A DNA stretch of 64,000 bases from Paenibacillus sp. OV219. GTDB lineage: Bacteria > Bacillota > Bacilli > Paenibacillales > Paenibacillaceae. The notes below the pieces were generated by a model. That model saw only the letters and a list, made by a program, of their open reading frames with translations, did not search any database and was not told the origin of the DNA. Every line of letters begins with the position of its first letter. Position 1 is the stretch's first letter. Below are positions 6,980 to 61,570 of this stretch, piece by piece. The position numbers and the translations under genes are program-made. The DNA is taken from contig NZ_FOCJ01000004.1 of the NCBI RefSeq assembly GCF_900110075.1, forward strand, positions 124,001 to 188,000, in the 5' to 3' direction.

Positions 6980-7263
6980 CGAATGTGTATCCCTGGGGAT
7001 ATTCTTTGGTTACTTTCTGCGGATTTCCGCAGATGTAGGGTACCTGCTACCCTTCTTTCACCATTTGGAGCTGATTTACATCAATGTAGGGTACCTGCTA
7101 CCCTTCTTTCACCATTTGGGGCTGACTTCCGTCAATGAAAGGTATCTGCTCCCCTTCTTTCACCATCTCACGCGAATTTCCGCCAATGTAGCTGGGCTAG
7201 CCAGCTTCTTTACCCACTTCCGGCGGAAATTCCGCCGATGTAGCTGGCTTATCCAGCTACATC
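6980..7263. repeat. Array of palindromic intergenic repeats (period about 51 bp)
   Basis: Hairpin cores follow one another: TATCCC/GGGATA (6988-7001), CTGCGGA/TCCGCAG (7017-7032), GGGTA-CCTGC-TACCC (7038-7052 and again 7089-7103), AGCTGG/CCAGCT (near 7190-7206), GGCGGAA/TTCCGCC (7222-7236) and GATGTAGCTGG/CCAGCTACATC (7237-7263). They are joined by connectors resembling TTTCCRYCAATGTAG. The whole 6636-7268 interval has no credible gene. The array ends 6 nt from the stop codon of the pseudouridine synthase gene, so the last hairpin may serve as its 3' end. Confidence 0.85.
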
Positions 7264-14520: not shown

Positions 14521-15207
14521 TTACTTCCCGGATCTGCAGCTTTTACCGCTTTTGCCGCCTTTAGCAGATGCATTGCGATTGCCGCGTGCGTTGCCGTTTG
14601 CGCCGCTGTTGCCGCCGCTTTTGTTTCCTCCGCTGCCGCCTGTGCCACGGCTGCCTTGGCTACCTTTGCTGCCGCCGCTTGCATAGATGCCAGCAGTTTT
14701 AACTGTTTTGATGTGGTAAAGCGGGATTTGGACCAATTCTTGACCTACAACCAGCATAAGTGCTTGGTTGCCAACTTGTGCGACAAAGCCCTCGATACGT
14801 TCTGGACCGCCCCAGTTGATTTGAACGAATTTGCGAGTCAGCTGGTGGAGTACGCCGTTGAAGCTGTCTGCGTTAATAAATTTGTAATGATCCATTCCAC
14901 GGCTAGTTTGGCCTGGAAGGTCTGTAACGCTTTTAACATGAGATGCATTGATATACACGAAGCCTGTGCTAGACCGAAGCACGAGATAACCTGTTTTAAC
15001 ACCAATCATGCGGCCTTCAAGCGATTCAGGACCGCCGCGGTTAATGCGAACGTTCATACCCATTTGAGATTCCAAGAAGTTTTGCCCTCCCGATTCATGT
15101 TTTGGTGGTTGATTTCCACGACTTCCTTGCGTTCTTTGTGGTCTTTGACCGCTTCTGTTGCAGCAGCCGCCATTTCCCATTTGCCAATTGTTGCTCTTAA
15201 CTTCCAT
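14521..15207 (-). CDS. cotB: Spore coat protein CotB
   Basis: A 228-residue protein from the ATG at 15207, preceded by GGAGGG. It contains CotB units: VRINRGGPESLEGRMIGV and FVQINWGGPERIEGFVAQV, each followed by a strand and SHVKSV or YHIKTV. In B. subtilis CotB the same INRGGPE-type units occur. The C-terminal 60 residues are low-complexity Gly/Ser/Asn/Lys (SKGSQGSRGTGGSGG, ending KSCRSGK), the counterpart of the Ser/Lys/Arg tail that CotH phosphorylates. It is divergent from the Gly-Ser-X repeat gene and close to cotH, as in Bacillus. CotB is an outer-coat protein. Confidence 0.88.
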   Translation of the reverse strand: MEVKSNNWQMGNGGCCNRSGQRPQRTQGSRGNQPPKHESGGQNFLESQMGMNVRINRGGPESLEGRMIGVKTGYLVLRSSTGFVYINASHVKSVTDLPGQTSRGMDHYKFINADSFNGVLHQLTRKFVQINWGGPERIEGFVAQVGNQALMLVVGQELVQIPLYHIKTVKTAGIYASGGSKGSQGSRGTGGSGGNKSGGNSGANGNARGNRNASAKGGKSGKSCRSGK

Positions 15208-15513
15208 ACCAAAATCCCTCCGTAAAGTAATAGATTTTGACCTGTACCACGACGAAAGCACCGGTGCAAATACGTGACGATTCGACCTACCTAACATACG
15301 GTTCATCCATCTCGCTTCGGCATTCATCCCTCCATTACTTGCCCCGGTGAAATCTATCATGGGAGACAATTTATAATGTATTTATATGTATCCCGTATCT
15401 TAGAGGTACTAGTTTTATATCTATTTTCTAGAAGATTAGTCATTAGCCCGGTGCGATTGATAGATTCGAATCATAGCTTGTATTAGAAACTATTAAAGGA
15501 GGAATAACATACT
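15208..15513. promoter_or_regulatory. Divergent promoter region of cotB and the Gly-Ser-X gene
   Basis: This 306-bp gap separates two outward-facing coat genes and must hold both promoters. It is A/T-rich around 15360-15440. No clear SigK -10 (CATANNNTA) could be fixed by eye. A palindrome GATTCGAATC lies near 15464. No gene is seen in it. Confidence 0.5.
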
Positions 15514-16191
15514 TTGCAAAGAAAAATGACGATTTCGACACAAGGCAGCCAAGGTTCCCGTGGTTCCCAGGGCTCCAACGGTTCCCGTGGTTCCCAAGGC
15601 TCGCGCGGCAACCAACCATCTCAAGGTTCGCAGGGTTCCCGCGGTTCTCAAGGCTCGCGTGGCAACCAACCATCTCAAGGTTCGCAGGGTTCCCGCGGTT
15701 CTCAAGGTTCCCAAGGTTCGCGCGGATCTCAAGGCTCGCAAGGCTCCCGTGGTTCTCAAGGATCGAGTGGTTGGGAAGGCTACGAAGGAAATGGCGGCAA
15801 TGAATATGACTGGGGGAACAGCAAATCTGATGGTTCCTTTGGTATGAGTGCTTATACGCGGGGACGCAACGGCAATAACCAAAGCGGTGGCAACAACAAA
15901 AGCGGCAATAACCAAGGCTCCAACGGCTCTCGCGGTTCCCAAGGCTCCAACGGCTCCCGCGGCAGCCAAGGCTCCCGTGGATCTCAAGGCTCTCGCGGCG
16001 ATCAAGGCTCACGTGGATCTCAAGGCTCTCGCGGTTCCCAAGGTTCCCGTGGCTCCAATGGTTCTCGTGGTTCCCAAGGCTCGCAAGGCTCCCGTGGCTC
16101 CAATGGTTCTCGTGGTTCCCAAGGCTCGCAAGGTTCTCGTGGCTCCAACGGTTCTCGTGGCTCCAACGGTTCGAACGGATCCCGCTGCTAA
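15514..16191 (+). CDS. Gly-Ser-X repeat protein in the CotG position
   Basis: A 225-residue protein starting with TTG after AAAGGAGG. Almost the whole chain is Gly-Ser-Gln, Gly-Ser-Arg and Gly-Ser-Asn triplets, in two blocks (about residues 10-85 and 125-223) around a Gly/Asn-rich centre containing WEGYEGNGGNEYDW. It ends in SRC. It lies between divergent cotB and co-directional cotH, exactly where B. subtilis has cotG, another highly repetitive Ser/basic protein phosphorylated by CotH. It shares no sequence with CotG, so a role as a functional CotG analogue is inferred. The regular Gly at every third position also recalls collagen-like exosporium proteins, but Pro is nearly absent. Confidence 0.75.
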   Translation: MQRKMTISTQGSQGSRGSQGSNGSRGSQGSRGNQPSQGSQGSRGSQGSRGNQPSQGSQGSRGSQGSQGSRGSQGSQGSRGSQGSSGWEGYEGNGGNEYDWGNSKSDGSFGMSAYTRGRNGNNQSGGNNKSGNNQGSNGSRGSQGSNGSRGSQGSRGSQGSRGDQGSRGSQGSRGSQGSRGSNGSRGSQGSQGSRGSNGSRGSQGSQGSRGSNGSRGSNGSNGSRC

Positions 16192-16295
16192 CCTGCAGTT
16201 AGCGCCGCACCATTAGACGAATATCCGCATAGTGTAAATAAGCTGAAGCCTATCGAATGCGATAGGCTTTATCTTTTGGCTAAGGAGATGGTCTA

Positions 16296-17369
16296 ATGTC
16301 CGGGGAAGGACTGCCTACTCGTAAAATAACAATTGACCTCGAAGATTTGCGGAGGCTGGAATCGGACGTTTGGAGCAACGAGTTCGCTCCCGTCAAGCTG
16401 GAGATGAACGGCGTCGTGATGGATGCCCAGCTTCGGTTCCGCGGCGGTCACACACGCAACTATCCGAAGAAATCGTATGAGATCCATTATGGATACAATC
16501 AAATTCTGCACTGGAATGCCGAGTTTGACGATCCATCCATGATACGCAACGCGCTCTCTTTTCAATTTTTCAATCTGATGGGTGTCCCTTCGCCAAAGAC
16601 GAAGCATATGTGGCTCGAATGGAACGGCAATCCTCATGGCTGTTACTTAGAGCTGGAATCCGTTGATTCGAGGTTCTTCCGCAAGCGGGGAATTGGCGCG
16701 AGATCACTGATCTATGCTGTTAATGACAAAGCAAACTTCAGCAACATCGACCCTTATACGGACGCGGAGAAGGAGACTATGTTCGAAGGATATCGGGTCA
16801 TGAAAGGAACGGATTATACACGAACGAAGCTTGTTCGCTTCATAAGGCGTATTAACCGGCCGGCGAATTCATCGCTGCGGACTTATTTGGCGAACCGTCT
16901 TGACGTCTATTTATACTTGAAATGGCTCGCAGGCGCGGTATTGACCGGCAACTACGACGGGTTCGACCAGAACTACGCGCTGTATGAACATACAAGCACG
17001 GGCAGATACCGGATCATTCCGTGGGATTATGAAGGTACATGGGGGAGAAACTGCTACGGCAAATTATGCGGCAGTGATCTTGTCGATGTGAAGGGGTACA
17101 ACACGCTTACATGGAAGGTGCTTTCTTATAAGTCTTGCAGGCAGGCTTATCGCAAAATCCTCTCGAATATGCTCGCAACCAAATTCACTGTCGAAACGAT
17201 TGAGCCGATGATTGCGAACCTGTATGAGAAGCTCGGACCTGCGATTCGGGATGATTTTACGCGCAAATGGCCCTATTACGCCTTCGAACAGGAGCCGCAG
17301 ACTTTCCTGGACTACATTGAAGAACGCAGGGCCATTGTGCAAGAAGTGCTCGATACGTGGAAAGATTAA
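16296..17369 (+). CDS. cotH: Spore coat kinase CotH
   Basis: A 357-residue protein, ATG after AAGGAGA. It aligns by eye along its full length with B. subtilis CotH: FRGGHTRNYPKKSYEIHY, LELESVDSRFF, IYAVNDKANFS, LKWLAGAVLTGNYDGFDQNY and RIIPWDYEGTWGRN. The Asp of IPWDY (residue 244) corresponds to the catalytic Asp of this atypical kinase family. CotH phosphorylates Ser residues of CotB and CotG in the outer coat. The Gly-Ser-X gene ends 104 nt upstream on the same strand and is the likely local substrate together with CotB. Confidence 0.93.
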   Translation: MSGEGLPTRKITIDLEDLRRLESDVWSNEFAPVKLEMNGVVMDAQLRFRGGHTRNYPKKSYEIHYGYNQILHWNAEFDDPSMIRNALSFQFFNLMGVPSPKTKHMWLEWNGNPHGCYLELESVDSRFFRKRGIGARSLIYAVNDKANFSNIDPYTDAEKETMFEGYRVMKGTDYTRTKLVRFIRRINRPANSSLRTYLANRLDVYLYLKWLAGAVLTGNYDGFDQNYALYEHTSTGRYRIIPWDYEGTWGRNCYGKLCGSDLVDVKGYNTLTWKVLSYKSCRQAYRKILSNMLATKFTVETIEPMIANLYEKLGPAIRDDFTRKWPYYAFEQEPQTFLDYIEERRAIVQEVLDTWKD

Positions 17370-20897: not shown

Positions 20898-23258
20898 TTA
20901 CTTCAATTCTGCAACCGTAACGCCCGCGCCGCCTTCGCCATATCTGCCGAGACGGTAGCTCTTCACATGCTTATGTCTGCGCAGAAAATCGCTGATTCCG
21001 GTCCGCAGTACGCCCGTGCCAATGCCGTGGATAATAAACACTTGCCCGAAGCCCGCCAAGAACGACTCGTCGAGGAACCGATCCACCTCAATCATCGCTT
21101 CCTCTAAGTTCGATCCGCGCAGATCCAGCTCGGAACGCACATTCTCATCGCGAGTACGCTTGAGGCTAGCGGAAATCTTCGGCTGCGCCTTGTTCGCTTC
21201 CGCACGTTTCACAAGCTCCAAGTCGCTAACCGCAACCTTCATCTTCATAATGCCGAGCTGCACAAAAGCATCGTTGCCTGACAGCTCCACAACATGTCCG
21301 CGCTGATTCAAGCTGTACACCATGACCTCGTCGCCGTTCTCAATCTGCTGCGGCTTTGCAGTCTTCTGCTTCGTACCAGCCGCTTTGCGCTTCTCTGGCA
21401 TCGCTTCATCTAGCTTACGGCGTGCTTCGATCAGCTTGTGATCCTTCACCGCCGCGCCTTCCTCTTGCGCGAGCTTGCGCAGATCCGCGATGATGTCTTC
21501 CGCTTCGCGCCTCGCCTTCAGTAGCACTTCGCGCGCATCATCCTGCGCCTTCGCGAGCAACCGCTCGCGCTGCTCCTCAAACTTCTGCAGCTCCGCTTCA
21601 TGCCGCGTACGCTCCGCCTCCAGCTGCTTGCGCAGCGCTTCGGCTGTGTTGCGCTCAGCCTCGGCACCGATTCGATTCTCCTCCAAGGAGGCGATCATCG
21701 ACTCGACGCGCATATCTTCTTCGCTCACTTCGCCGCGCGCGTGATCTATAATGGTCCGCGTAAGGCCAAGCCGCTCCGCAATCGCGAACGCGTTGCTTCG
21801 GCCAGGAACTCCGATGAGCAAGCGGTAGGTTGGGCTCAGCGTCGCAATATCAAACTCCATGCTCGCATTGATTACGCCTTTGCGGTTGTAAGCATAAGCT
21901 TTCAATTCACTGTAGTGCGTTGTCGCTATGATACGGCATCCGAGCTTATGCATATGCTCGAGAATCGCAATCGCTAGTGCAGAGCCTTCCGCCGGATCGG
22001 TTCCTGCACCAAGCTCATCGAGCAGAACAAGACTCTTCGGCGTCATATTGCTCAAGATTCGGATAATATTCGTTAAGTGGCTGGAGAACGTACTTAGGCT
22101 CTGCTCGATGCTTTGCTCATCGCCAATATCGGCATAGATCGCATCAAATACGCATAGCTGGCTGCCGTCTTCAGCCGGTACGAACAAGCCGGACATCGCC
22201 ATCAGGCTGAGCAATCCGATCGTCTTCAGTGAGACCGTCTTACCGCCCGTGTTCGGACCTGTTACGATAATCGCCGTGTAGTTGTTGCCAAGCTCGACAT
22301 CAATCGGCACCACATGCTCGCGAGCAATAAGCGGATGGCGACCGCGGCGCAGCTTCAGGAAGCCTCTGTCATTCATGAGTGGCAGCGTTGCCCCCATCGT
22401 ATGTGCAAGACGCGCTTTGGCAAAGGCAAAATCAAGCTGTCCGAGCACATCCATATCCAGCATCAACTCATCCGCATATTCCGCTGTCAGTGCAGTCAGC
22501 TTTTGCAGGATTTTCTCAATTTCCCGCTCCTCCGCAAGCCGCAGCTCACGCAGTTTATTGTTCATGACAACAATCGCTTCCGGCTCGATGAACAGCGTCG
22601 CACCAGAGCCCGATTGATCGTGGACGATGCCTCCGAAATTCGAACGGTATTCCTGCTTCACTGGAATGACATAGCGGTCGTTCCGGATCGTAATAATGGC
22701 ATCCTGCAGCATCTTCTGCACAGATGAAGAACGAATCATGCCCTCAAGCTTCTCGCGTACGCGAGATTCACCGCTGCGCAGCTCTCTACGGATATTAGCG
22801 AGCTCGGCGCTTGCGCTATCCATCACTTCCGCCTGATCATCAATACAGAAGAAGATTGCGTCTTCCAAAGCTTTATGCTCGGTCAACTGCTCAACCATGG
22901 CCGCAAGAAGCGGAACCGAATGGTCATCATGAAGCTGCTCAACATGGCGTTTCACCCGGCGCGAACCGCGAACGGTCTCCGCAATTTCCAGTAGCTCCCC
23001 GGGGTTTAGCGTACCGCCGATCTTCGAACGAAGCAGGGACGGCTTAATATCGACAACACCGCCGAATGGCGCACTGCCTTTGAGCCGATCGGCTTTATAG
23101 GATTCATCCGTAATGGCTAGGGAATGCTTCACCATCTCCAAATCGGAGTTTGGTTGGAGCGCCTGAACAGCTGCTTTTCCAAGTGATGTCGCAGCATGCT
23201 GCTCTAATTTATTTACAATTTTGGCATAATCGAGTGTGTGTAATATTTTGTTGTCCAA
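20898..23258 (-). CDS. mutS2: MutS2 / RqcU ATPase with Smr domain
   Basis: A 786-residue protein from the TTG at 23258 (DNKILHTLDYAKIVNKLEQH), the usual family start, preceded by GAGGAG. GPNTGGKTVSLKTIGLL is the Walker A loop, LVLLDELGAGTDPAEGSALA Walker B, and the last 80 residues, beginning ELDLRGSNLEEAMIEVD and containing IIHGIGTGVL, form the Smr nuclease domain. MutS2 has been linked to suppression of recombination and, in B. subtilis, to rescue of collided ribosomes. Neighbours match Bacillus (DUF350 downstream), but polX, yshB and rnhC expected upstream are absent. Confidence 0.95.
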   Translation of the reverse strand: MDNKILHTLDYAKIVNKLEQHAATSLGKAAVQALQPNSDLEMVKHSLAITDESYKADRLKGSAPFGGVVDIKPSLLRSKIGGTLNPGELLEIAETVRGSRRVKRHVEQLHDDHSVPLLAAMVEQLTEHKALEDAIFFCIDDQAEVMDSASAELANIRRELRSGESRVREKLEGMIRSSSVQKMLQDAIITIRNDRYVIPVKQEYRSNFGGIVHDQSGSGATLFIEPEAIVVMNNKLRELRLAEEREIEKILQKLTALTAEYADELMLDMDVLGQLDFAFAKARLAHTMGATLPLMNDRGFLKLRRGRHPLIAREHVVPIDVELGNNYTAIIVTGPNTGGKTVSLKTIGLLSLMAMSGLFVPAEDGSQLCVFDAIYADIGDEQSIEQSLSTFSSHLTNIIRILSNMTPKSLVLLDELGAGTDPAEGSALAIAILEHMHKLGCRIIATTHYSELKAYAYNRKGVINASMEFDIATLSPTYRLLIGVPGRSNAFAIAERLGLTRTIIDHARGEVSEEDMRVESMIASLEENRIGAEAERNTAEALRKQLEAERTRHEAELQKFEEQRERLLAKAQDDAREVLLKARREAEDIIADLRKLAQEEGAAVKDHKLIEARRKLDEAMPEKRKAAGTKQKTAKPQQIENGDEVMVYSLNQRGHVVELSGNDAFVQLGIMKMKVAVSDLELVKRAEANKAQPKISASLKRTRDENVRSELDLRGSNLEEAMIEVDRFLDESFLAGFGQVFIIHGIGTGVLRTGISDFLRRHKHVKSYRLGRYGEGGAGVTVAELK

Positions 23259-23434
23259 GCGGGCACAACTCCTCTCGTTTCTTATTATAGCGGAAGGAAG
23301 CAGTCTATGCCATGACAAGCGATGCACCCATGAATGACAGTTACAAAAAAGGTAACACTACATGTACACGAGGAGTAACACCATCTCCGAGTAAGGAAGC
23401 TCTTCCAAAAAATAGGTACAGGAGGTTTTCCGTA

Positions 23435-24517: not shown

Positions 24518-25201
24518 ATGGGCAAGCTGAGTGGACAAGTAGCGGTAATTACAGGTGCGGGCACGGGACTCGGCAGGGCAACGGCAATTGATTTTGCACG
24601 GGAAGGCGCTCATGTCGCTCTGCTCGGCAGACGGTCCCACAAGCTCGAAGAAACAGCTGAACGGATCAGAAACGATGCAGCCGGCGAAGGTAAAGTACTT
24701 GTACTGGCATGTGATATTACGATTGAAGAGCAAGTAGAAGCTGCTATTGCACGGGTCATGGCCGAGCTAGGCAAGATTGATATTCTCGCGAACAACGCAG
24801 CAGTACTGGAGCCTGGCAAAGTCATTGAACTGACGGCTGCAGAGTGGGCGCTTCAGCTTAGCGTGAATTTGACGGGACCTTTCCTCATGACGCGAGGTGT
24901 CCTGCCAACTATGCGCGAGGCACGCTATGGCCGGATTATCAACATTACTTCCGGTCTTGCATGGAACGGTGCCGGTGGTTATGCCGCATACAGCGCATCC
25001 AAAGCAGGCCTCGAATCACTAACGCGGACGACGGCCGATGAAGAGCATGATTTCGGCATTCTCGTGAACGCGTTCAATCCGGGCACAGTTCGCAGCGAAA
25101 TGCATGCAACAGGCAAGGATCCGCATCAAGTGACGTCTGAGCTTGTTCGCCTAGCCTCGCTTCCGCAGAACGGCGTGACGGGCTCGATCGTTACCCATTA
25201 A
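24518..25201 (+). CDS. Short-chain dehydrogenase/reductase
   Basis: A 227-residue Rossmann protein. TGAGTGLGRATA is the cofactor-binding TGxxxGxG motif, NNAA the structural motif, and YAAYSASKAG the catalytic Tyr-x3-Lys. The start ATG at 24518 follows AAAGGGTGG. The C-terminus is slightly short for the family and lacks the usual final GGxxxxG(G) segment, ending instead in GVTGSIVTH. It resembles FabG-like oxidoreductases, but the substrate is unknown. Confidence 0.85.
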   Translation: MGKLSGQVAVITGAGTGLGRATAIDFAREGAHVALLGRRSHKLEETAERIRNDAAGEGKVLVLACDITIEEQVEAAIARVMAELGKIDILANNAAVLEPGKVIELTAAEWALQLSVNLTGPFLMTRGVLPTMREARYGRIINITSGLAWNGAGGYAAYSASKAGLESLTRTTADEEHDFGILVNAFNPGTVRSEMHATGKDPHQVTSELVRLASLPQNGVTGSIVTH

Positions 25202-25227
25202 TGAAGCATTAAAGTGAGGTAGTCGCG

Positions 25228-25295
25228 AAAATAAGGGCTATGTCCGTATGAGCAGGTTCCAGTAGAAACCTTCATACGTCCATAGCCCTTATTAT
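25228..25295. terminator. Bidirectional terminator between convergent genes
   Basis: Long interrupted arms (AATAAGGGCTATG with CATAGCCCTTATT, then CGTATGA with TCATACG) close a hairpin flanked by A-rich and T-rich ends. It separates the dehydrogenase gene from the convergent coiled-coil gene and could serve both. Confidence 0.85.
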
Positions 25296-25319
25296 GTTGG
25301 TACGGATGGAGCTTTTCTC

Positions 25320-28300
25320 TTAGTTGTCCGAGATAAGCTCAATCCACTCATTATACTCCGTTTGCAGCTTCGAGTATTCAATCTGCAGCTTGCTGTGCTC
25401 CGTTTGCAGCTTCGCATGTGACTCACGTTGCTGTTGCTCGGCTTGACCCGCTTCATGCAGCGCCGATTCTAGCTCCGCGAGACGTTCGCTAATTTGCTGC
25501 GCCTCCTGCTTCACTTTCATCGCATCCTCTTCGGTTAGCAGTAGCTGCTCAAGCAACCCTGCTTCCGCTTCCGCATGCGCTGCGGCTTCCCGCTTCGCAA
25601 GCTGAATCTCCGAATCAGCCGCCTGTACCTGATCATTCAGCTTCGAGGACGCTTCATCTGCGATCCGCTCGGCTTCCGCCATGTGCTGACGAGCTTCGCG
25701 CATCCATTCGAATGCGCGATCTTCAGCAGCTTGCAATCTGCTTGCAAGCTCTTCCTTCTGCTCAGCGAGCTGCTTCAGTTCCTGCTGCAGCGTATCACGA
25801 TGTTCCACCAGCAGTTGGTGCTCATAATTGCTGCTTTCAGTTACCTGATGCGTTTCTTTCAGCTGTGCGCGTAGCTCTGCGAGCTGTTCTTCAAGCTCTT
25901 GCATCGCTTCAAGGCGGTGCTGGTCTTCCTGCTGGAAGGAGGCAAGCGCCTGTTCTATCTTAGATACTGCGTTCTCTCGCTCGTGAAGCTCTTGTTCAAG
26001 ACGCTTTACTGTTTTGCGCAGTGAATCGTCCTGCTCAGCTGCTTCCAAGACGAACAGCTCTGCCTGCTCTTCTGCTTCCTTAAGCTTGGCTTGCAGCACG
26101 CTCAGCTCTCGTCCCGTTTCATCAAGCAATGAGGAGAGCGCTTCACGTTCGTTCTGCCACAAAGTCTTTGAACTCTCCGCAGCTTCTTCAAGCGTCGCAT
26201 AACGAAGCGTTAGCTCCGCACGGACCGCGTCTAGCTCTTGCTTATATCTAGTGGCAACAGCTTCCGCCTCTTGCGATCCTTCTTGCAGTGCTTCCTCAAA
26301 CAGCGCTTGACCAGTACTGCGCTCCTGCTCGAGCACAGTTGCAGCCTGTTTACGCTCTTTCTCAAGCTCAGCCTGATGCTTCTCGCGCATTTGTGCAATC
26401 GTTGCAGCTGCGTCTTCATTCGCCTCTGCTAGCGCTGCTGCAGCTTCTTCTCGCTCGGTTTCTAGTAAGCTTTGCAAGGCTACACGCAGCTCCGACAGCT
26501 GCTCCTCTGCCGCCGCGGCTGCTTGCGAAGCCTCACCGCGAATGCGGTCGAACCGCTCGCGCGCCGCTTGGCGAATACGCTCCACTTCCACCTCTGCATT
26601 CACGCGCGCTTGCTCCGCTTGCTGCTGCAGCTCTGCTCGCGTTTCCTCGAACATCTCCACTGCTGCAGCTGCTGCCGTCTCATGCATCAGACGTTCTTTG
26701 CTGAGCTCCTCGTCAAACGCGGCGAGCGCATCCGCTAGCTGCGCTTCTGCTGCTTGGCGTTCACTTGCAAGCTGCGCTTGAAGTACCGCACGTTCGCTCT
26801 CATGTTCTTCGCGAGCTGTGCGAAGTGCAATAGCTTGCTCTTCGAGCTCTAGCTCCTGCTCAAAGCGCTGCTCCGCCATCACTGCTCCCAGCTGCTCACG
26901 TAGCTGGGCAAGCTCCGCTGCTGCTGCATCGCGGAGTTCTGCCAGCTGCGCGGTAGCAGCTACTCGCTCGCGAGCCAGCTGTGCCCGGCCCGCTTCGAGC
27001 GCTTGCTCATGCTGTGCTTCAAGTGCCGCGCACTCGCGATCATGCTCTTCGCGAGCTGTGCGCAATGCGATGACTTGCACTTCGAGCTCGAGTTCCAGCT
27101 CGAAGCGCTGCTCCGCCATCGCCGCATCCAGCTGCTCACGCAGCTGCACAAGCTCTGCAGCTGCCAGTTCGCGCTCACTTGCCGCCTCGATTGCTGCCGA
27201 TTCTATCGCTTGCTCAAGCCGTCCTTGCAATTCCGAACGGACCTGCTCTAGCTCAACGCGAGCCGACTCTTGCTCGCTCGCCAGTTGCTTCTGCAGCTCC
27301 GACTTTACTTGCTCAAGCAGGACGCGAGCAGTTTCCTGCTCATTCTCCCGCTCCGCCGTAAGCTCTACCCACACGCGCTCCAGCTCCGCTTGGGAGGCCG
27401 CAGCCGCATCACGCTCACTCGCGAGCTGCGCCTCAAGCTCGCCTTGCACCTGCGAGAGCTCCTCTGCCGCGGCTATAACCGCTGCGTTCATGCGCTCTTG
27501 CAGTTCGGCGCTTGTTCGCTCCAGTTCTACGCGCGCTGCCACGCGCTCGCTCTCTAGCTGAGCACGAACTCGCTCTTGCTCCGCCGCTACAGCTTCGCGT
27601 TCACTCGCGAGCTGCGCCTCAAGCTCACTGCGTACTCGCTCCTGCTCTTCACGCGCGACTTCACGCTCGAATCCAAGCGTCTCCTCTGCGTTCTTACGCT
27701 CGATGAGCAGCTTCACCTCAAGCTCGGTACGCACCTTCGCTTGCTCCGCTACCGTCTTACGCTCGCTCTCAACCTGTGCTAACAGCTCTTTTCGCACGCG
27801 TTCAAGCTCTTCACTCGCGACTTCACGCTCGAACTCGAGCGTCTCCTCTGCGTTCTCACGCACATTCACGAGCTGTGCTTCCAGCTCGACTCGTACTCGC
27901 TCTTGCTCCGCTGCCGCTGCTTCACGCTCGCTCGTGAGCTGTGCTTCCAGCTCAACTCGTACTCGCTCTTGCTCCGCTGCCGCTGCTTCACGCTCGCTCG
28001 TGAGCTGCGCTTCCAGCTCGACTCGTACTCGCTCCTGCTCCGCTGCCGCTGCTTCACGCTCGCTCGTGAGCTGTGCCTCAAGCTCGACTTGCACTCGCTC
28101 AAGCTCAGCCGCTGCTGACTCGCGCTCACTTGCAAGCTCCGCTGCCGCGGTGCGTGCCGCTTCTTCCAGGCGCCCTTGCAAAGCTGCGCTTGTCCGCTCC
28201 AGCACTTTACGCGCTGCCTCTCGCTCGCTCTCAAACTCGCCGAGTACTCGCTCTTGCTCTGCAGCTGCTGACTCGCGCTCACTTGCAAGCAGCTTCTCCA

Positions 28301-29621
28301 GCTCGACTCGTACTCGCTCCTGCTCTTCACGCGCGACTTCACGCTCGAATTCGAGCGTCTCGTCCGCTTTCAGACGCTCACTTGCCAGCTTCGCCTCCAG
28401 CTCGGCTCGTACTCGCTCTTGCTCCGCTGCCGCTGCTTCACGCTCGCTCGTGAGCTGTGCCTCAAGCTCGACTTGCACTCGCTCAAGCTCAGCTACTGCT
28501 GACTCGCGCTCACTCGCTAGCTTTACCTCAAGCTCAAAGCGTACTCGCTCTTGCGCCGCCGCAGCCTCGCGCTCGCTAGCTAGCAACGCCTCCAGCTCGC
28601 CGCGAACCCGCGCCAGCTCCGCTGATGCCGCCTCACGCTCGCTTGCAAGTACATCGGCCGCTACGCGGACCGCTTCTTCCATGCGCCCTTGCAGAGCAGC
28701 GCTTGTCCGCTCTAGCTCTTCGAGCGAAGACTCACGCTCGCTCTCAAGCTGCGCTTCCAATTCGCTTCGTAATCGCTCTTGTTCTTCTCGCGCTACTTCA
28801 CGCTCGAACTCGAGCGTTTCTTCCGCGTTCTCGCGTTCACTCGCCAGCTTCACTTCCAGCTCGTCGCGAATCCGCGCCAGTTCCGCCGCTGCGGCATCAC
28901 TTTCACTCGCGAGCTTTGCCTCCAGCTCACTTCGTACTCGTTCCTGCTCTCCCACAGCCGCCTCGCGTTCACTCGCCAGCTGCGCTTCCAATTCACTTCG
29001 TACTCGCTCTTGTGCTTCTCGTGCTACTTCACGCTCGAACTCGAGCGTCTCTTCAGCATTCACACGCTCGCTCGCGAGCAACGCCTCCAGCTCGCTTCGT
29101 ACTCGTTCCTGCTCTCCCGCAGCCGCCTCGCGCTCGCTCGCCAGCTTCACTTCCAGCTCGTCGCGAACCCGCGCCAGTTCCGCCGCTGCGGCATCATTTT
29201 CACTCGCGAGTTTTGCCTCCAGCTCAGTTCGTACTCGCACTTGCTCATTACGCGCTGCTTGGCGCTCCGAAGCAAGCGTCTCCTCAGCATCCGCGCGTTC
29301 TGCATCGAACTGCTTCTGCAGTTCATCAAGCAGCAGCTTCAACTGCTCAAGCTCAGCAACCGCTACCTTGCGGCGCTGTTCGATCTCATGCATGTGCTCG
29401 TTCTCGCCGCGCAGCCGGAAAACATCTTCAGCCATATGTACGGCAGCAAGCATGGAAATTTTCGGTAAATCCAGCATGGGATATCCCTTTGCCAGCTTAT
29501 GCATATTCTCATCAACAAGCGCGGCAATGCGCTTGATGTATTCGGGATTTGTATGTCCTGCTAGTTTAAATTGGTTACCGTATATATCAACCGTTACTCG
29601 TGTCCGATCGGCAGCGTTCAT
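25320..29621 (-). CDS. Giant coiled-coil protein with an N-terminal ZapA domain
   Basis: A 1433-residue protein, ATG after AGGAGG. Residues 1 to about 85 (RTRVTVDIYGNQFKLAGH, HMAEDVFRLRGE) match ZapA, the FtsZ-ring stabiliser that is normally about 85 residues long. All the rest is Ala/Glu/Arg/Leu/Gln coiled coil. Between roughly 110 and 750 it is built of modules of 22 or 33 residues, i.e. two or three 11-residue units such as ASEREAAAAEQ + ERVRVELEAQL, or ASERVNAEETL + EFEREVAREAQ. The tail changes to 7-residue repeats (KLQTEHS, KLQIEYS). There is no membrane segment. It occupies the zapA position downstream of pheT. A role as an extended Z-ring scaffold is inferred; the ZapA identity of the head is fairly firm. 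Confidence 0.85.
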   Translation of the reverse strand: MNAADRTRVTVDIYGNQFKLAGHTNPEYIKRIAALVDENMHKLAKGYPMLDLPKISMLAAVHMAEDVFRLRGENEHMHEIEQRRKVAVAELEQLKLLLDELQKQFDAERADAEETLASERQAARNEQVRVRTELEAKLASENDAAAAELARVRDELEVKLASEREAAAGEQERVRSELEALLASERVNAEETLEFEREVAREAQERVRSELEAQLASEREAAVGEQERVRSELEAKLASESDAAAAELARIRDELEVKLASERENAEETLEFEREVAREEQERLRSELEAQLESERESSLEELERTSAALQGRMEEAVRVAADVLASEREAASAELARVRGELEALLASEREAAAAQERVRFELEVKLASERESAVAELERVQVELEAQLTSEREAAAAEQERVRAELEAKLASERLKADETLEFEREVAREEQERVRVELEKLLASERESAAAEQERVLGEFESEREAARKVLERTSAALQGRLEEAARTAAAELASERESAAAELERVQVELEAQLTSEREAAAAEQERVRVELEAQLTSEREAAAAEQERVRVELEAQLTSEREAAAAEQERVRVELEAQLVNVRENAEETLEFEREVASEELERVRKELLAQVESERKTVAEQAKVRTELEVKLLIERKNAEETLGFEREVAREEQERVRSELEAQLASEREAVAAEQERVRAQLESERVAARVELERTSAELQERMNAAVIAAAEELSQVQGELEAQLASERDAAAASQAELERVWVELTAERENEQETARVLLEQVKSELQKQLASEQESARVELEQVRSELQGRLEQAIESAAIEAASERELAAAELVQLREQLDAAMAEQRFELELELEVQVIALRTAREEHDRECAALEAQHEQALEAGRAQLARERVAATAQLAELRDAAAAELAQLREQLGAVMAEQRFEQELELEEQAIALRTAREEHESERAVLQAQLASERQAAEAQLADALAAFDEELSKERLMHETAAAAAVEMFEETRAELQQQAEQARVNAEVEVERIRQAARERFDRIRGEASQAAAAAEEQLSELRVALQSLLETEREEAAAALAEANEDAAATIAQMREKHQAELEKERKQAATVLEQERSTGQALFEEALQEGSQEAEAVATRYKQELDAVRAELTLRYATLEEAAESSKTLWQNEREALSSLLDETGRELSVLQAKLKEAEEQAELFVLEAAEQDDSLRKTVKRLEQELHERENAVSKIEQALASFQQEDQHRLEAMQELEEQLAELRAQLKETHQVTESSNYEHQLLVEHRDTLQQELKQLAEQKEELASRLQAAEDRAFEWMREARQHMAEAERIADEASSKLNDQVQAADSEIQLAKREAAAHAEAEAGLLEQLLLTEEDAMKVKQEAQQISERLAELESALHEAGQAEQQQRESHAKLQTEHSKLQIEYSKLQTEYNEWIELISDN
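27870..28133 (-). repeat. Four 66-bp tandem repeats inside the coiled-coil gene
   Basis: Near-identical units start at 27870, 27936, 28002 and 28068, exactly 66 bp apart. Each encodes one 22-residue double hendecad. They cover about residues 496-584 of the protein. Confidence 0.92.
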
Positions 29622-29876
29622 AGGGGTGATCCTCCTATAGGTTCATAAGTCAAAACTACAGTTCTATGCGACAATCGTTGCCATCATCCACATTCAATCA
29701 AGCAAAAAACGACGACTATTTTGCCTCCGATTCATACAAGGTCTTACAAATAGGATAAAGCCGCATCGAATATTCGTTCAGAGGCCGCACAGCACGTATC
29801 GCCTATTACTAAAATAGACAATATCCGTTTTTGCTTGGCAAAGAACTAATTCGATACGGCTTCCCGCATCTCCTGC

Positions 29877-32324
29877 CTATTTACGCAATTCTGCTGCAAA
29901 AGATTGTTCCAAGTTTGCTACAACCTTGCCGTGTAGCTCCGTTACTTCTTCATCAGTCAACGTACGCTCAGCATGGCGGTAAACGAGCGACAATGCGACA
30001 CTCTTCTTGTCTGCGCCGAGCTTCTCGCCCATGTAGATGTCGAAGATGCGAACCGACTCAAGCAGCTCGCCAGCGGTCTCGCGAACAGCGCCAACCAGCT
30101 TGCCTGCTTCAACCTCAAGACTCAATACGACTGCAATGTCCCGCTCCATCGCTGGGTAGCGAGGCAACGCTTTGTATACAATATCGAAGCTCGTCGCATC
30201 ATACAGCGGCGCCAGCTCTACTTCAAGCACATACGTATCGCCAAGATCGTGATCGTTCTGTGTCGTTGGGTGCAGTTGACCCATGTAGCCGATTGTCACA
30301 GGACCGCGTTCGCTATCGAACACAATGGCAGCCGTACGGCCCGGATGCATATGCTCCGGCTGTGCCGCCTCATAGCTGATGTCGCCACTTACGCCAAGCA
30401 GATCGACAATTGTTTCCATGATGCCTTTCAAATCGTAGAAGTCATACGCTTCTGCTTTGCGGTTCCAAGATGCCACATTTTTATTACCTGTAAGCAAAAT
30501 CGCCAAACGATGCTTCTCATGCGGCAAGCGAGTAAGCTCCGCCTCATCTGTATGGAAGACGCTGCCGATCTCGAAGATCGCGGCATCATCATTCTTCCGG
30601 TTGCGATTGTACGTCGCCGTCTCAAGCAGTTGCGGCAGCAGACTTGTGCGAAGCACACTGCGGTCCTCGCTCATCGGCAGTGCCAGTCGAACAGGGAACA
30701 GATCTGCGCCAGTCAAAGCCGGGAACAGCTTCGTGCGGTCTGGATGCGTGAACGAATAGCTGATCACTTCATGAAGGCCTGCATCTGTCAGACGCTTACG
30801 CAGCTCGCGGCGGATTGCCTGCGGCTTCGTCAGCGCACCAGTTGTTGCTGAGCCTTCAATTGCAGTAGTTGGAATGTTATCGTATCCGAACAGACGGGCT
30901 ACCTCTTCAATCAGATCGACGTCGCGCGTAATGTCGCCGCGGCGCGAAGGTGTCTGAACGGTAAATACCCCATCCGCCGACAATTCAAACGGGAATTGCA
31001 AACGACCGAAGATTGTCTCGACTTCAAGCTTCGACAGCTCCGTGCCGAGGTAACGGTTGATTTTATGGAGAGATACGCTGACAACGGTTTGCTTCGGTTG
31101 CTCTGTAAGCTCTTCGACGATGCCTTCAAGCACAAGACCGTCCGCATACTTCTCCATCAGTGCCGCTGCGCGATTAAGCGCAGGCACGACACGCGCCGGG
31201 TCTACGCCTTTCTCGAAACGAACGCTCGATTCCGAGCGAAGACCGACTTGGCGGGATGTCTTGCGGATCGTTCCGCCGTCGAAGCGAGCCGATTCCAGCA
31301 GAATATTGACCGTGCCGTCAGTAACTTCCGTTGTCGCACCGCCCATTACGCCTGCGAGCGCAATCGGCTCGCTGCCATTCGTAATGACGAGCATGCTCGA
31401 ATCCAGCTTGCGCTCCCCGCCGTCAAGTGTTTCCAGCACTTCGCCGTCATGCGCCATACGGACAACGATACGTCCACCTGCTACTTTATCTGCATCGAAT
31501 GCGTGTAGCGGTTGACCGTATTCGAGCAGAACGTAGTTCGTAATATCAACGACGTTGCTGATTGGGCGAATGCCTGCAGCCATAAGGCGGTTCTGCATCC
31601 ATTGCGGTGAAGGACCGATCTTAACGCCTTTAATATAACGTGCGGAATAGTGCGAGCACTGCTCCTTCGCTTCAATGCGGACGGACACATGCGCAGAAGT
31701 CAGCTCTGCCGCATCGCTTACGCGATTGTCCGGCAGCTTAACTTCACGGCCTGTCAGCGCGCCTACTTCATAAGCAACGCCAAGCATGCTCAGGCAGTCC
31801 GAACGGTTCGGTGTCAGATCAAGCTCCAGCACTTCATCATCAATAGCCAGCACATCAAGAATCGACGCGCCTACTTTAGTACCTTCAGGCAGAACGAGAA
31901 TGCCTTCCTGCTGCTCCTTAGGAAGCAGCTTCTCGTTAAGGCCAAGCTCCTTCGCTGAACAGATCATCCCCTGGGATTCAACACCGCGCAGCTTAGCGCG
32001 CTTAATTGCAAAGTCGCCAGGAAGCACTGCGCCGATTGTTGCTACCGGAACGAGCTGGCCTGCCGCAACGTTCTTCGCGCCGCACACGATTTGCAGCACT
32101 TCCGGGCCGCCAACATCAAGTGTACATACGCTCAGCTTATCTGCATCCGGATGCTTTTCACGAGTTAGCACATGACCAACTACGACGCCGGCTTTAACGC
32201 CTTTGTTACGGTTTTCAACGACGTCAATCTCAATACCGCCGCTTGTCATCAGTTCCGCCAGCTGCTCGCCGGTGTAACCGTTCAGATCTATATATTCACT
32301 TAGCCATTTATAAGAAACATTCAT
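29877..32324 (-). CDS. pheT: Phenylalanyl-tRNA synthetase beta subunit
   Basis: An 815-residue protein of full length. It begins MNVSYKWLSEYIDLNGY; residues 40-150 are the tRNA-binding OB domain (VVVGHVLTREKHPDADKLSV), followed by the B3/B4 editing domain (GPSPQWMQNRLMAAGIRPIS), B5 domain (SLHKINRYLGTELSKLEVE), a catalytic-like core and the C-terminal ferredoxin-like anticodon-binding domain (LPRYPAMERDIAVVL). It pairs with PheS as an alpha2beta2 enzyme that charges tRNA-Phe. It starts 18 nt after pheS and shares its T-box control. Confidence 0.97.
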   Translation of the reverse strand: MNVSYKWLSEYIDLNGYTGEQLAELMTSGGIEIDVVENRNKGVKAGVVVGHVLTREKHPDADKLSVCTLDVGGPEVLQIVCGAKNVAAGQLVPVATIGAVLPGDFAIKRAKLRGVESQGMICSAKELGLNEKLLPKEQQEGILVLPEGTKVGASILDVLAIDDEVLELDLTPNRSDCLSMLGVAYEVGALTGREVKLPDNRVSDAAELTSAHVSVRIEAKEQCSHYSARYIKGVKIGPSPQWMQNRLMAAGIRPISNVVDITNYVLLEYGQPLHAFDADKVAGGRIVVRMAHDGEVLETLDGGERKLDSSMLVITNGSEPIALAGVMGGATTEVTDGTVNILLESARFDGGTIRKTSRQVGLRSESSVRFEKGVDPARVVPALNRAAALMEKYADGLVLEGIVEELTEQPKQTVVSVSLHKINRYLGTELSKLEVETIFGRLQFPFELSADGVFTVQTPSRRGDITRDVDLIEEVARLFGYDNIPTTAIEGSATTGALTKPQAIRRELRKRLTDAGLHEVISYSFTHPDRTKLFPALTGADLFPVRLALPMSEDRSVLRTSLLPQLLETATYNRNRKNDDAAIFEIGSVFHTDEAELTRLPHEKHRLAILLTGNKNVASWNRKAEAYDFYDLKGIMETIVDLLGVSGDISYEAAQPEHMHPGRTAAIVFDSERGPVTIGYMGQLHPTTQNDHDLGDTYVLEVELAPLYDATSFDIVYKALPRYPAMERDIAVVLSLEVEAGKLVGAVRETAGELLESVRIFDIYMGEKLGADKKSVALSLVYRHAERTLTDEEVTELHGKVVANLEQSFAAELRK

Positions 32325-32342: not shown

Positions 32343-33374
32343 TCACATTCGGACAAACTGGCTCAGGAAGCGCAGATCGTTCGTATAGAAATGACGAATA
32401 TCGTCGATGCCGTACTTGAGGAGCGCGATACGCTCTACGCCCATACCGAATGCGAAGCCGCTGACTTCGTTCGGATCGTAGCCGCCCATCTCGAGCACAC
32501 GTGGGTGAACCATGCCGCAGCCGAGAATTTCGAGCCAACCGGTCTGCTTACACATCCGGCAGCCATGACCGCCGCATTGTACGCAAGTGACATCCACTTC
32601 AGCGCTTGGCTCTGTGAATGGGAAGAAGCTCGGACGCAGACGAATTTGCGCCTGCTTGCCGAACATTTGCTGCACGAATTGCAGCAATGTGCCTTTCAAG
32701 TCGCTCATACGGATGTTCGGCCCGATTACGAGGCCTTCAATCTGATTGAACTGGAACGAATGCGTCGCATCGTCATCGTCTCGACGATAAACTTTGCCCG
32801 GGCAAATCACTTTAACTGGCTTGCCGTTCATCGCTTTCATCGTGCGAACTTGCACCGGCGATGTGTGCGTACGCATCAGAATATCTTCCGTTACGTAGAA
32901 CGAATCCTGCATATCGCGCGCAGGGTGGTTCTTCGGCAGGTTTAGCGCCTCGAAGTTATAGTAGTCGGACTCAACCTCAGGACCTTCCGCAATGGTATAG
33001 CCCATGCCGATAAAAGCATCCTCGATCTCCTGCGCCACCTTGTTAAGCGGGTGGATCGCGCCTGCGCCAAGCTTCTTGCCTGGCAGCGTGACATCAATGG
33101 TTTCCTCGCGAAGGCGATTCTCTGTCTCTGCTTGCTGGAATGCAGCCTGCTTCGTCTCGATGACTTCTTCGATTGCCGCGCGGACTTCGTTGCCGACTTG
33201 CCCGATAATCGGACGCTCTTCAGCGCTCAGAGCACCCATACCGCGAAGAATTTCGGTGAGCGCACCTTTTTTGCCTAAATATTTGACCCGCAAATCATTC
33301 AATTGCTGCGGCCCGGCTACTTGCTGCAGCTCCTGCAGCGCCTCGGCGCGCAATGCTTCCAAACGCTCTTTCAT
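32343..33374 (-). CDS. pheS: Phenylalanyl-tRNA synthetase alpha subunit
   Basis: A 343-residue class II synthetase subunit. The N-terminal coiled coil ([17 protein letters not shown]) binds tRNA; the catalytic core contains [39 protein letters not shown] (motif 2 region), [14 protein letters not shown] and the C-terminal [18 protein letters not shown] (motif 3). It has the expected length. The T-box leader upstream regulates it by charging of tRNA-Phe. Confidence 0.97.
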
Positions 33375-50223: not shown

Positions 50224-51220
50224 AAAGCACTCTTGCGTGATTTTGTTTGGTTTTCTGAGTAAGAGGGGTACGGGGTACTCCTCTTGGGCTATTTTTGCTG
50301 ATCTTCTGCTCAAGAGGGGTACCTGCTACCCCTCTTGGGCTGTTTTTGCTGGTTTTCTGCTCAAGTGGGGTACTGGTTACTCCTCTTGAGCTGTTTTTGC
50401 TGGTTATCTGCTCGAGTGGGGTACTGGTTACTCCTCTTGCACCTGAGGAATTTCGGTCGCAGTGAGGTATCTCGCACATTGATAGAGTAACTAGTTAGTC
50501 AACTAGACCTGCTACATTCTCCCATCCCTACTATGTAGTCCACCTAACCAGCTACTTTCCTACTTTCCTCATTCCACCAAATTCCCACCAATGTAGTCCA
50601 CCAGAGCAGCTTCTTTCACTCATCCCACCGGATTTACACCAATGTAGTCCACCAGACCAGCTACTTGCCTTCATTCCGCTAGATTTCCACCAATGTAGTC
50701 CACCAGACCAGCTACTTTCTCTCATTCCGCAAGATTTTCCACCAATGTAGTCCACCAGACCAGCTACTTTCGCTCATTTCGCCAAATTTCCTCCAATGTA
50801 GTCCACCAGACCAGCTACATTCTCAAATTCCACCGATTTTCCACCAATGTAGTCCATCTAACCAGCTACTTTCTCTCATGACACCTGAATTCCGCCGATG
50901 TAGTCCACCAGACCAGCTACATTCTCAAATTCCATCGAAATTCCACCAATGTAGTCCAACAATCCAGCTACTTTCCCTCATTCCACCGAATTTCCACCAA
51001 TGTAGTCTACCAGGCCCCAGCTACTTGACTCCAAAGAAGAGCACTACGTGATACTACTCTGTCGGCATCCCGACCCATTTCCCCCCAATGTGTATCCCTG
51101 GGGATACTCTTTCAGCTTTCCGGTCCATTTCCCGCCAATGTGCATCGCTACGGGATACTCTTTCGGCATTCCGACCCATTTCCCCCCAATGTGTATCCCT
51201 AGATGACTCTCTTTCACACC
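50224..51220. repeat. About 1 kb of palindromic intergenic repeats in three sub-families
   Basis: First, 51-bp units with an AAGAGGGGTA-CCTGC-TACCCCTCTT core (50312-50336 is perfect) recur at about 50260-50440. Second, about ten units of about 52 bp carry GTAGTCCACCAGACCAGCTA joined by ATTTCCACCAAT connectors (50510-51020). Third, three units carry GTATCCC-TG-GGGATAC or degenerate forms (51090-51210). The 50140-51332 interval contains no credible gene; short frames rich in Gly-Leu-His-Trp are repeat translations. Confidence 0.9.
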
Positions 51221-61140: not shown

Positions 61141-61570
61141 GAGCTGAGAGAACGTATACGATCTCTCAGCTCTCAACTCACCGCTTTTTCCGCGTGAGAG
61201 AACGTATATGATCTCTCAGCCTTGGATTCCGCCCGATCCAGGCTATTCTCTGCTCTGAGAGATCCATATCTGCACTCTCAGCTATATAATCGTTCCTTTT
61301 TCCGCGTGAGAGAACGTATATGATCTCTCAGCCTTGGATTCCGCCCGATCCAGGCTATTCTCTGCTCTGAGAGATCCATATCTGCACTCTCAGCTATAAT
61401 CGTTCCTTTTTCCGCGTGAGAGAACGTATATGATCTCTCAGCCTTGGATTCCGCCCGATCCAGGCTATTCTCTGCTCTGAGAGATCCATATCTGCACTCT
61501 CAGCTATAATCGTTCCTTTTTCCGCGTGAGAGAACGTATATGATCTCTCAGCCTTGGATTCCGCTTCAGG
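61141..61570. repeat. 110-bp tandem repeats built of TGAGAGA hairpins
   Basis: CGCGTGAGAGAACGTATATG starts at 61191, 61303, 61413 and 61523 (periods 112, 110, 110). Each unit has two hairpins with 7-bp stems: TGAGAGA-TCTCTCA and CTGAGAG-CTCTCAG. A shorter related unit precedes it at 61145. The 61027-61927 interval holds no gene. Confidence 0.92.

Follow-up and report, generated by a model that had tools for sequence, protein, structure and literature searches.

A predicted coiled-coil rod set between the head and the terminal helix of ZapA in Paenibacillus sp. OV219 and other Paenibacillales

The window analysed here is a stretch of 64,000 nucleotides from Paenibacillus sp. OV219 (contig NZ_FOCJ01000004.1, positions 124,001 to 188,000), and its subject is a minus-strand gene, zapA-long (25320..29621), an open reading frame (ORF) of 1433 amino acids (aa) that starts with ATG, contains no internal stop and follows the Shine-Dalgarno sequence AGGAGG (29631..29636, minus strand) at a distance of 9 bases. 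Three parts can be distinguished in the predicted protein. A ZapA domain (residues 9-93; 29343..29597), matched by Pfam, is by homology a putative FtsZ-binding dimer head; a long, presumably inserted coiled-coil rod (residues 96-1401; 25419..29336) is proline-free, rich in E, A, L, R and Q, and periodic at 11 and 22 residues; and a conserved C-terminal tip (residues 1402-1432; 25326..25418), HAKLQTEHSKLQIEYSKLQTEYNEWIELISD, is homologous to the end of ordinary ZapA. Within the rod lie a DNA repeat of 231 base pairs (bp; 77 aa = 7x11) at 28732..29290 and tandem repeats of 66 bp (22 aa = 2x11) at 27870..28127. On the same strand, pheT (29877..32324) is the conserved upstream neighbour, next to pheS (32343..33374; name assigned from sequence), and mutS2 (20898..23327) is the downstream neighbour past three opposite-strand genes; pheT and mutS2 were identified by family scan and locus comparison. 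The strand opposite to zapA-long carries a 645-aa open frame (27703-29640), which is open because biased repeats permit such frames; homology and conservation lie with the minus-strand frame. A chance ORF was rejected for zapA-long on the grounds of its homologous head, Shine-Dalgarno sequence, signature of selection and conserved tip.

The original prediction, made from this stretch alone, described a ZapA domain joined to a ~1350-residue coiled coil at the pheT locus. The first 100 aa indeed match Pfam ZapA (PF05164) with an E-value of 4.8e-15 and 56.1 bits (cut-off 23.8), residues 9-93 aligning with positions 1-83 of the 88-position profile, and the 1433-aa frame with its proline-free periodic rod agrees with the predicted coil. 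The closest solved structure to the head is a ZapA (2mmv_A, E 8e-16), while the uncharacterized 138-aa protein 3hnw_A gave a weak match that was not significant (E 0.17). A PF05164 search of the whole genome (6.1 Mb, 99.99% complete) returned zapA-long as the sole ZapA match (55.7 bits), so that a second, ordinary zapA, which the prediction had named, together with a failure to localise to division sites, as counting against it, was rejected. Two weak points of the assignment should be mentioned: the full-length protein matched zero families in a Pfam scan, and the NCBIfam ZapA equivalog PRK14126 scored 66.1 bits with the head and 60.4 bits with the whole protein, under its cut-off of 80. Family scans thus barely reveal long ZapA. 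These scores place zapA-long in the ZapA superfamily but outside the short equivalog PRK14126 and, judged by its head, place and end, it is a ZapA with a new architecture. Membership of SMC was rejected (TIGR02168, 21.6 bits over residues 1202-1425 against a threshold of 567, a coiled-coil resemblance only), as was that of EzrA, since PF06160 had no match in zapA-long or anywhere in the genome. Literature searches, with subscription journals mostly outside their scope, found no description of a long ZapA and, as the prediction had supposed, no described function for one.

Is this architecture a peculiarity of a single genome? Such uniqueness was rejected, because long ZapA occurs widely in the genus, family and order. 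ZapA was present in all 22 genomes of the genus, with open frames of 805-1528 aa; in 391 of 394 genomes of the family, with frames of 275-1616 aa and none of ordinary size among the ~160 of 393 matches listed; and in 239 of 246 genomes drawn from the order. Genomes outside the family in a draw from the class had ZapA frames of 74-258 aa among the matches listed. In a phylum draw, two frames listed at 660 and 687 aa (G934, G918) measured 100 and 104 aa when read from stop to stop, and the outsized values for G717, G833 and G941, together with 354 aa for G756, are listed values only. We read 60 loci (59 fetched and that of the window), and the 56 intact proteins from the order range from 138 to 1892 aa (median 911), a ~14-fold span, which makes the architecture a feature of the order, with very variable length; length and tip counts were taken without L106, cut by a contig end, and the frameshifted L095, L101 and L136. 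Lengths were counted from the first start codon of the frame, so that some are too long by tens of residues, and the listed frame lengths, compared by eye with ~20 of the 59 fetched loci, agreed within the start-codon difference. Among eight reference genes looked for, pheT was the nearest upstream at 60/60 Paenibacillales loci, bearing out the predicted placement, and mutS2 lay downstream at 54/60 (some stretches stop short of mutS2). The position directly after pheT is shared with zapA of Bacillus, as we understand the gene order there.

Nine distinct genomes lacked a ZapA match in the family and order surveys, and seven of them (not G486 and G515) were searched again. In five (G091, G465, G476, G478 and G503) the gene was present with a divergent head that passed the cut-off after stretches in the same frame were summed, and the tip could be read in four, the G465 stretch being incomplete; the new search gave nothing in G199 and nothing credible in G086. 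Two ZapA matches each were found in G239 (10% contamination) and G391 in the family survey. One copy per genome is therefore the rule, not an absolute one. Rod length appears to have changed repeatedly, because a MutS2 tree of 50 loci requires several switches between long and short forms: with a limit of 300 aa the label needs 4 changes, 3 of them forced by well-supported branches, and with a limit of 400 aa it needs 5, with 4 forced (L113 is short by one residue). The tree leaves out six loci without a MutS2 longer than 600 aa as well as the four loci named above.

The zapA-long rod (1308 residues) contains 0 Pro, 17 Gly and 1 Cys and carries a net charge of -158, and its hydrophobic pattern recurs at lags of 11, 22, 33 and 44 residues (z 7.0, 8.0, 4.8 and 3.2 against shuffles); these lags and the 66- and 231-bp repeats point to a hendecad pattern. 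Proline makes up 0.02% of 42,906 residues pooled from 47 rods. In 49 proteins compared, lag 11 exceeded lag 7 in 32 and the reverse held in 17, with spectral peaks at 3.49-3.67 residues. The claim of a coil rests on this composition and periodicity. With 0.1485 nm per residue, helix length would come to ~200 nm in zapA-long, 9 nm in the shortest protein and 269 nm in the longest.

A further question is whether such lengths matter to the cell at all. Coil repeats might expand by slippage, with length irrelevant and the protein doing the ordinary short-range job of ZapA. The ~14-fold length variation and the switches on the MutS2 tree would fit such neutral drift, as would the 22- and 77-aa repeats, which show slippage or duplication, and the faster evolution of the rod compared with the head and tip: the ratio of nonsynonymous to synonymous substitution rates (dN/dS) was 0.16-0.24 for the rod (six computable pairs), 0-0.14 for the head (seven pairs) and 0-0.18 for the tip (six pairs). 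The same rod values, however, show purifying selection and, together with the near absence of proline, a rod kept helical. Moreover, length changes mostly by steps that keep the phase of the helix. In five closer pairs, 14 of the 29 insertions or deletions of at least 4 aa were multiples of 11; all 29 clustered in helical phase (Rayleigh p 2e-8 at period 11/3), as did the 15 that were not multiples of 11 (p 0.006 at 3.6). This test leaves out the divergent pairs L093/L094 and WIN (zapA-long)/L083 and changes shorter than 4 aa, and slippage of 22-aa units accounts for part of the clustering. Drift is also hard to reconcile with the lack of any ordinary-sized frame among the family matches listed, and we regard it as quite unlikely.

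The opposite end of the protein is conserved as well. The tip follows the consensus L-x2-EY-x-KLQ-x-E-[YF]-NEWI-[EQ]-L in 56/60 loci, within the last ~22 residues (EYxKLQxEYNEWIELIE), where the invariance of W is owed partly to the search pattern, which demanded it. It is encoded at 59/59 testable loci whatever the rod length, at 56 in frame and at three in a shifted frame; loss of the tail in L095, L101 and L136 was accordingly rejected, as the tip sits downstream in another frame, and the sixtieth locus (L106) falls outside the testable set. Between head and tip the proteins can be aligned only among close relatives. Searched with a profile built from 36 tips, 28 of 29 relatives showed a single strong place (E <=1.4e-9), and every further place scored 0.026 or worse; 15 of the 28 had contributed no row to the profile. 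The strong place lay in a frame of the length of the ZapA frame in 26/28 and in a separate frame in G020; for G401 the ZapA frame length is absent among the matches listed, leaving nothing to compare. In G395, the one relative in which no strong tip was found, an open frame of 129 aa carries EDYAKLRAAYTELKQKV ahead of its last residues, a version lacking W.

Outside this group the tip is scarcely found. In the class draw the profile was strong in 17/17 family members and in 0/183 others; weak matches (E 0.002-0.009) occurred in 7/183 genomes outside the family, and in three of these (G586, G572 and G631) the matched place was the end of an ordinary ZapA. A DNA pattern of the tip core matched at least 120 stretches in the GTDB collection, and 79 of the 80 listed belong to Paenibacillus, Paenibacillaceae, Fontibacillus or Longirhabdus, the other (L200) being an unrelated frame, by which a general bacterial motif was rejected.

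Where, then, does the tip come from? Ordinary Bacilli ZapAs finish with ..NIADEYFRLRQEYEELIKLLEE, and 25 distinct ends of this kind, each taken from a genome that lies outside the order, were used to build a matrix; of 30 ordinary ZapA loci, two that lacked the pattern and one that ended at a stop were left out, as were duplicates. Scored over every window past residue 110, the matrix placed the tip first in 55/56 proteins, the exception being L112 (rank 5); in 30/56 the scoring window overran the C-terminus, so that only part of it was scored. In zapA-long the tip reached 13.7 bits against -9.3 for the best of 1301 other windows. In a version restricted to full windows the tip ranked first in 25/26 proteins, whereas 300 column-permuted matrices ranked it first in 0.28 proteins on average and in at most 4 of 26; with half of the matrix columns the signal was weaker (rank 1 in 16 and 8 of 26). 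These rankings show the tip to be a homologue of the C-terminal helix of the ordinary ~90-aa ZapA, so that the rod sits inside ZapA, before its end. A segment of the ordinary end is also present beside the head in L085, L115, L122 and L128 (12-23 bits). Since the segment is kept beside the head in some lineages and at the tip, the terminal helix was probably duplicated or opened, and the coiled coil arose between its two copies. The predicted head and coil thus stand, but a simple fusion does not: the far end is a conserved ZapA helix, and the coil would be an internal insertion or follow a duplication. Long ZapA exemplifies the lengthening of a protein by a coiled coil that stands ahead of the protein's own end segment. 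The head-rod-tip architecture, its conservation and its distribution over the order are well supported by these comparisons.

The likeness to ordinary Bacillota ZapA (PF05164; 2mmv, 86 aa) extends from the head domain, usually in single copy, to the final helix, whose motif (A)DEYFRLRQEYEELIKLLEE is recognisable in the long-form EEYxKLQxEYNEWIELIE. The ordinary protein has ~80-125 aa in one piece, whereas the long forms hold up to ~1800 helical residues between head and end, and it mostly reads E-E-L-I where the long-form tip reads N-E-W-I. In 56 tips, residues conserved at 90% or more include E13, E20, N22, E23 and I25, which lie off the 4-3-4-3 core, apparently more than a plain two-stranded coil needs. 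These invariant surface residues, and the Trp where ordinary ends carry Leu, Ile or Met, could indicate that the tip docks on another partner, such as a membrane anchor, DivIVA or a chromosome factor, making the protein a one-ended FtsZ tether with a reach of up to 200 nm, like ZapA and ZapB in one chain; SepF, present in 29/29 relatives, shows that at least one other ring part exists. Homology to ZapA's own end, however, calls for no new partner; none emerged as a candidate, and the profile search revealed the motif strongly only once in the genome (next best E 0.38). We consider docking unlikely, if worth keeping in mind.

Long coiled coils require register control, and the tip might only nucleate or register two long chains as a trigger or clamp, leaving an ordinary dimeric ZapA on an inert stalk. 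The heptad-compatible, partly aromatic core of the tip would suit this role, but the tip is also kept in near-rodless proteins of 138-178 aa (L130, L128, L126 and L127), in which register is no problem, and we find such a clamp decidedly improbable.

How might such a protein work? In published work on ZapA, as far as the consulted parts of the sources go, FtsZ is bound by the dimer heads, and two dimers are held together through a bundle of their four C-terminal helices in a dumbbell tetramer that cross-links FtsZ; the dimer-only mutant I83E neither bundles FtsZ nor complements (PMC12216130, PMC6917738, PMC12754632, PMC7246612); in B. subtilis, ZapA is located on the Z ring, according to the part consulted of PMC10780868. 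By analogy, we propose that long ZapA dimerises as a parallel coiled coil that bears FtsZ-binding heads at one end and a ZapA dimer-dimer joint at the other, and acts as a long-range FtsZ cross-linker, a reading to which we give a probability of roughly 0.45. The only ZapA found in this genome would thus have been remade as a long rod. Two chains would pair in parallel, with a pair of heads at one end, and ~1350 helical residues would separate the heads from the tip, ~200 nm for a fully extended rod. The tip would most likely serve to join a second dimer, as C-terminal helices do in the ZapAs studied, because the head and end are kept while only the distance between them varies, for which this is the simplest reading. 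Tip-to-tip joining would hold the heads up to ~400 nm apart and antiparallel joining along the rod ~200 nm apart, so that FtsZ filaments or clusters could be cross-linked across a long, lineage-specific distance of one or two rod lengths. The dimer, the straight rod, the tip tetramer, FtsZ binding and long-range cross-linking are all steps that we infer; the predicted spanning or bundling of FtsZ filaments is plausible by the same analogy.

Several observations weigh against such a cross-linker. Three of 59 genes (L095, L101 and L136) look frameshifted in the rod, and so, probably, does that of G020; in at least one of these assemblies (L095) mutS2 is also split in three. The stronger of lags 7 and 11 passes z 5 in only 24/49 proteins, and the spectral peak barely beats shuffles in a few (L122, L082 and L080). 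The range of 805-1528 aa within one genus is easier to reconcile with a loose tether than with a precise ruler, and a 200-nm rod exceeds the Z-ring width of 80-100 nm given for E. coli and B. subtilis in the consulted part of PMC12754632. In addition, the C-terminal-helix tetramer was shown for gamma-proteobacterial ZapAs, and the consulted parts of the sources yielded no test of this kind on the short ZapA of Bacillota.

The proposed principle, FtsZ-binding heads and dimer-joining C-terminal helices, resembles that of the gamma-proteobacterial tetramer (E. coli and K. pneumoniae; PMC12216130, PMC12754632), insofar as these sources were consulted. There the heads are spaced by a short four-helix bundle, assumed rigid in the portion seen of PMC6917738, unlike the ~200-400 nm that long ZapA would provide. 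ZapA-ZapB and the Caulobacter coiled-coil pair (PMC12754632, PMC7246612, PMC6917738), as described in the parts consulted, likewise combine ZapA with a coiled-coil partner but are two proteins, whereas long ZapA is a single chain with a ZapA-derived tip. A link of the ring to the envelope or nucleoid, also raised in the original prediction, found no backing: no 19-residue Kyte-Doolittle mean reached 1.6 in the 56 proteins (maximum 0.86 in zapA-long), and no DNA-binding domain appeared in zapA-long in the Pfam and NCBIfam family scans.

EzrA (PF06160) is a long helical FtsZ regulator of other Bacilli, which differs from zapA-long in being membrane-anchored and built of spectrin-like triple-helix repeats, according to the parts consulted of PMC4243239 and PMC4113482, and in giving no Pfam match to it. 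Could the rod compensate for a missing EzrA? The order showed no canonical EzrA (at best 71.9 bits, with 19/159 genomes over the cut-off of 39.6), nor did the OV219 genome, and 129/200 genomes of the class draw passed the cut-off, with 346-664 bits among the best matches listed. Against this, relatives with short ZapA are also weak (G400, 160 aa, 19.8 bits; G402, 149 aa, 23.9 bits), five Bacilli with ordinary-sized ZapA frames (G524, G525, G533, G535 and G536) have no EzrA match either, and the search scored just 6-8 candidates per genome; we hold compensation to be very improbable. In G381, G413, G477, G405 and others we noticed frames of 550-910 aa that resemble EzrA weakly and in part (39-72 bits); they may be remote relatives of EzrA or simply coiled coils.

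Returning to cross-linking, a more specific form is possible, which we put forward tentatively and with doubt: both ZapA ends would be kept while their separation, some 9 to 270 nm of helix, was repeatedly reset by adding or removing phase-keeping repeats, so that rod length would set the spacing of FtsZ filaments or clusters. If true, these proteins would be a set of natural rulers for the architecture of the ring. Models of the ring have the fixed short length of ZapA, a widespread FtsZ cross-linker, built into them, and here a large, common bacterial order bears it as a rod that varies ~14-fold in length between species with both ends fixed, a natural experiment on whether cross-linker length determines the width, condensation and dynamics of the Z ring.

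Other features of the window deserve brief mention. Between zapA-long and an opposite-strand SDR gene (25201-25320) there is no room for a CvpA gene, which follows zapA at several other Paenibacillales loci (one CvpA reference used); the zapA-cvpA order, which we take to be that of Bacillus, thus seems to be broken here. At 15514-17369 (plus strand), a collagen-like, serine-rich ORF of GSQGSRGS repeats (225 aa; Pfam Collagen, 93.8 bits) immediately precedes a gene for a CotH kinase (219.9 bits with Pfam CotH). CotH phosphorylates Ser-rich spore-coat repeats, and the two genes are a possible kinase-substrate pair. The Gly/Ser-rich C-terminus of a neighbouring frame with a DUF6897 match (14521-15369, minus strand; 26.4 bits) contains GSQGSRG and resembles the repeats of the collagen-like ORF. 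Two far-apart tandem arrays of ~51-bp repeats (7019-7258 and 50560-51026) have the common core CAATGTAG, and a direct repeat of 110 bp, in 3.4 copies with 99% matches, occupies 61184-61564.

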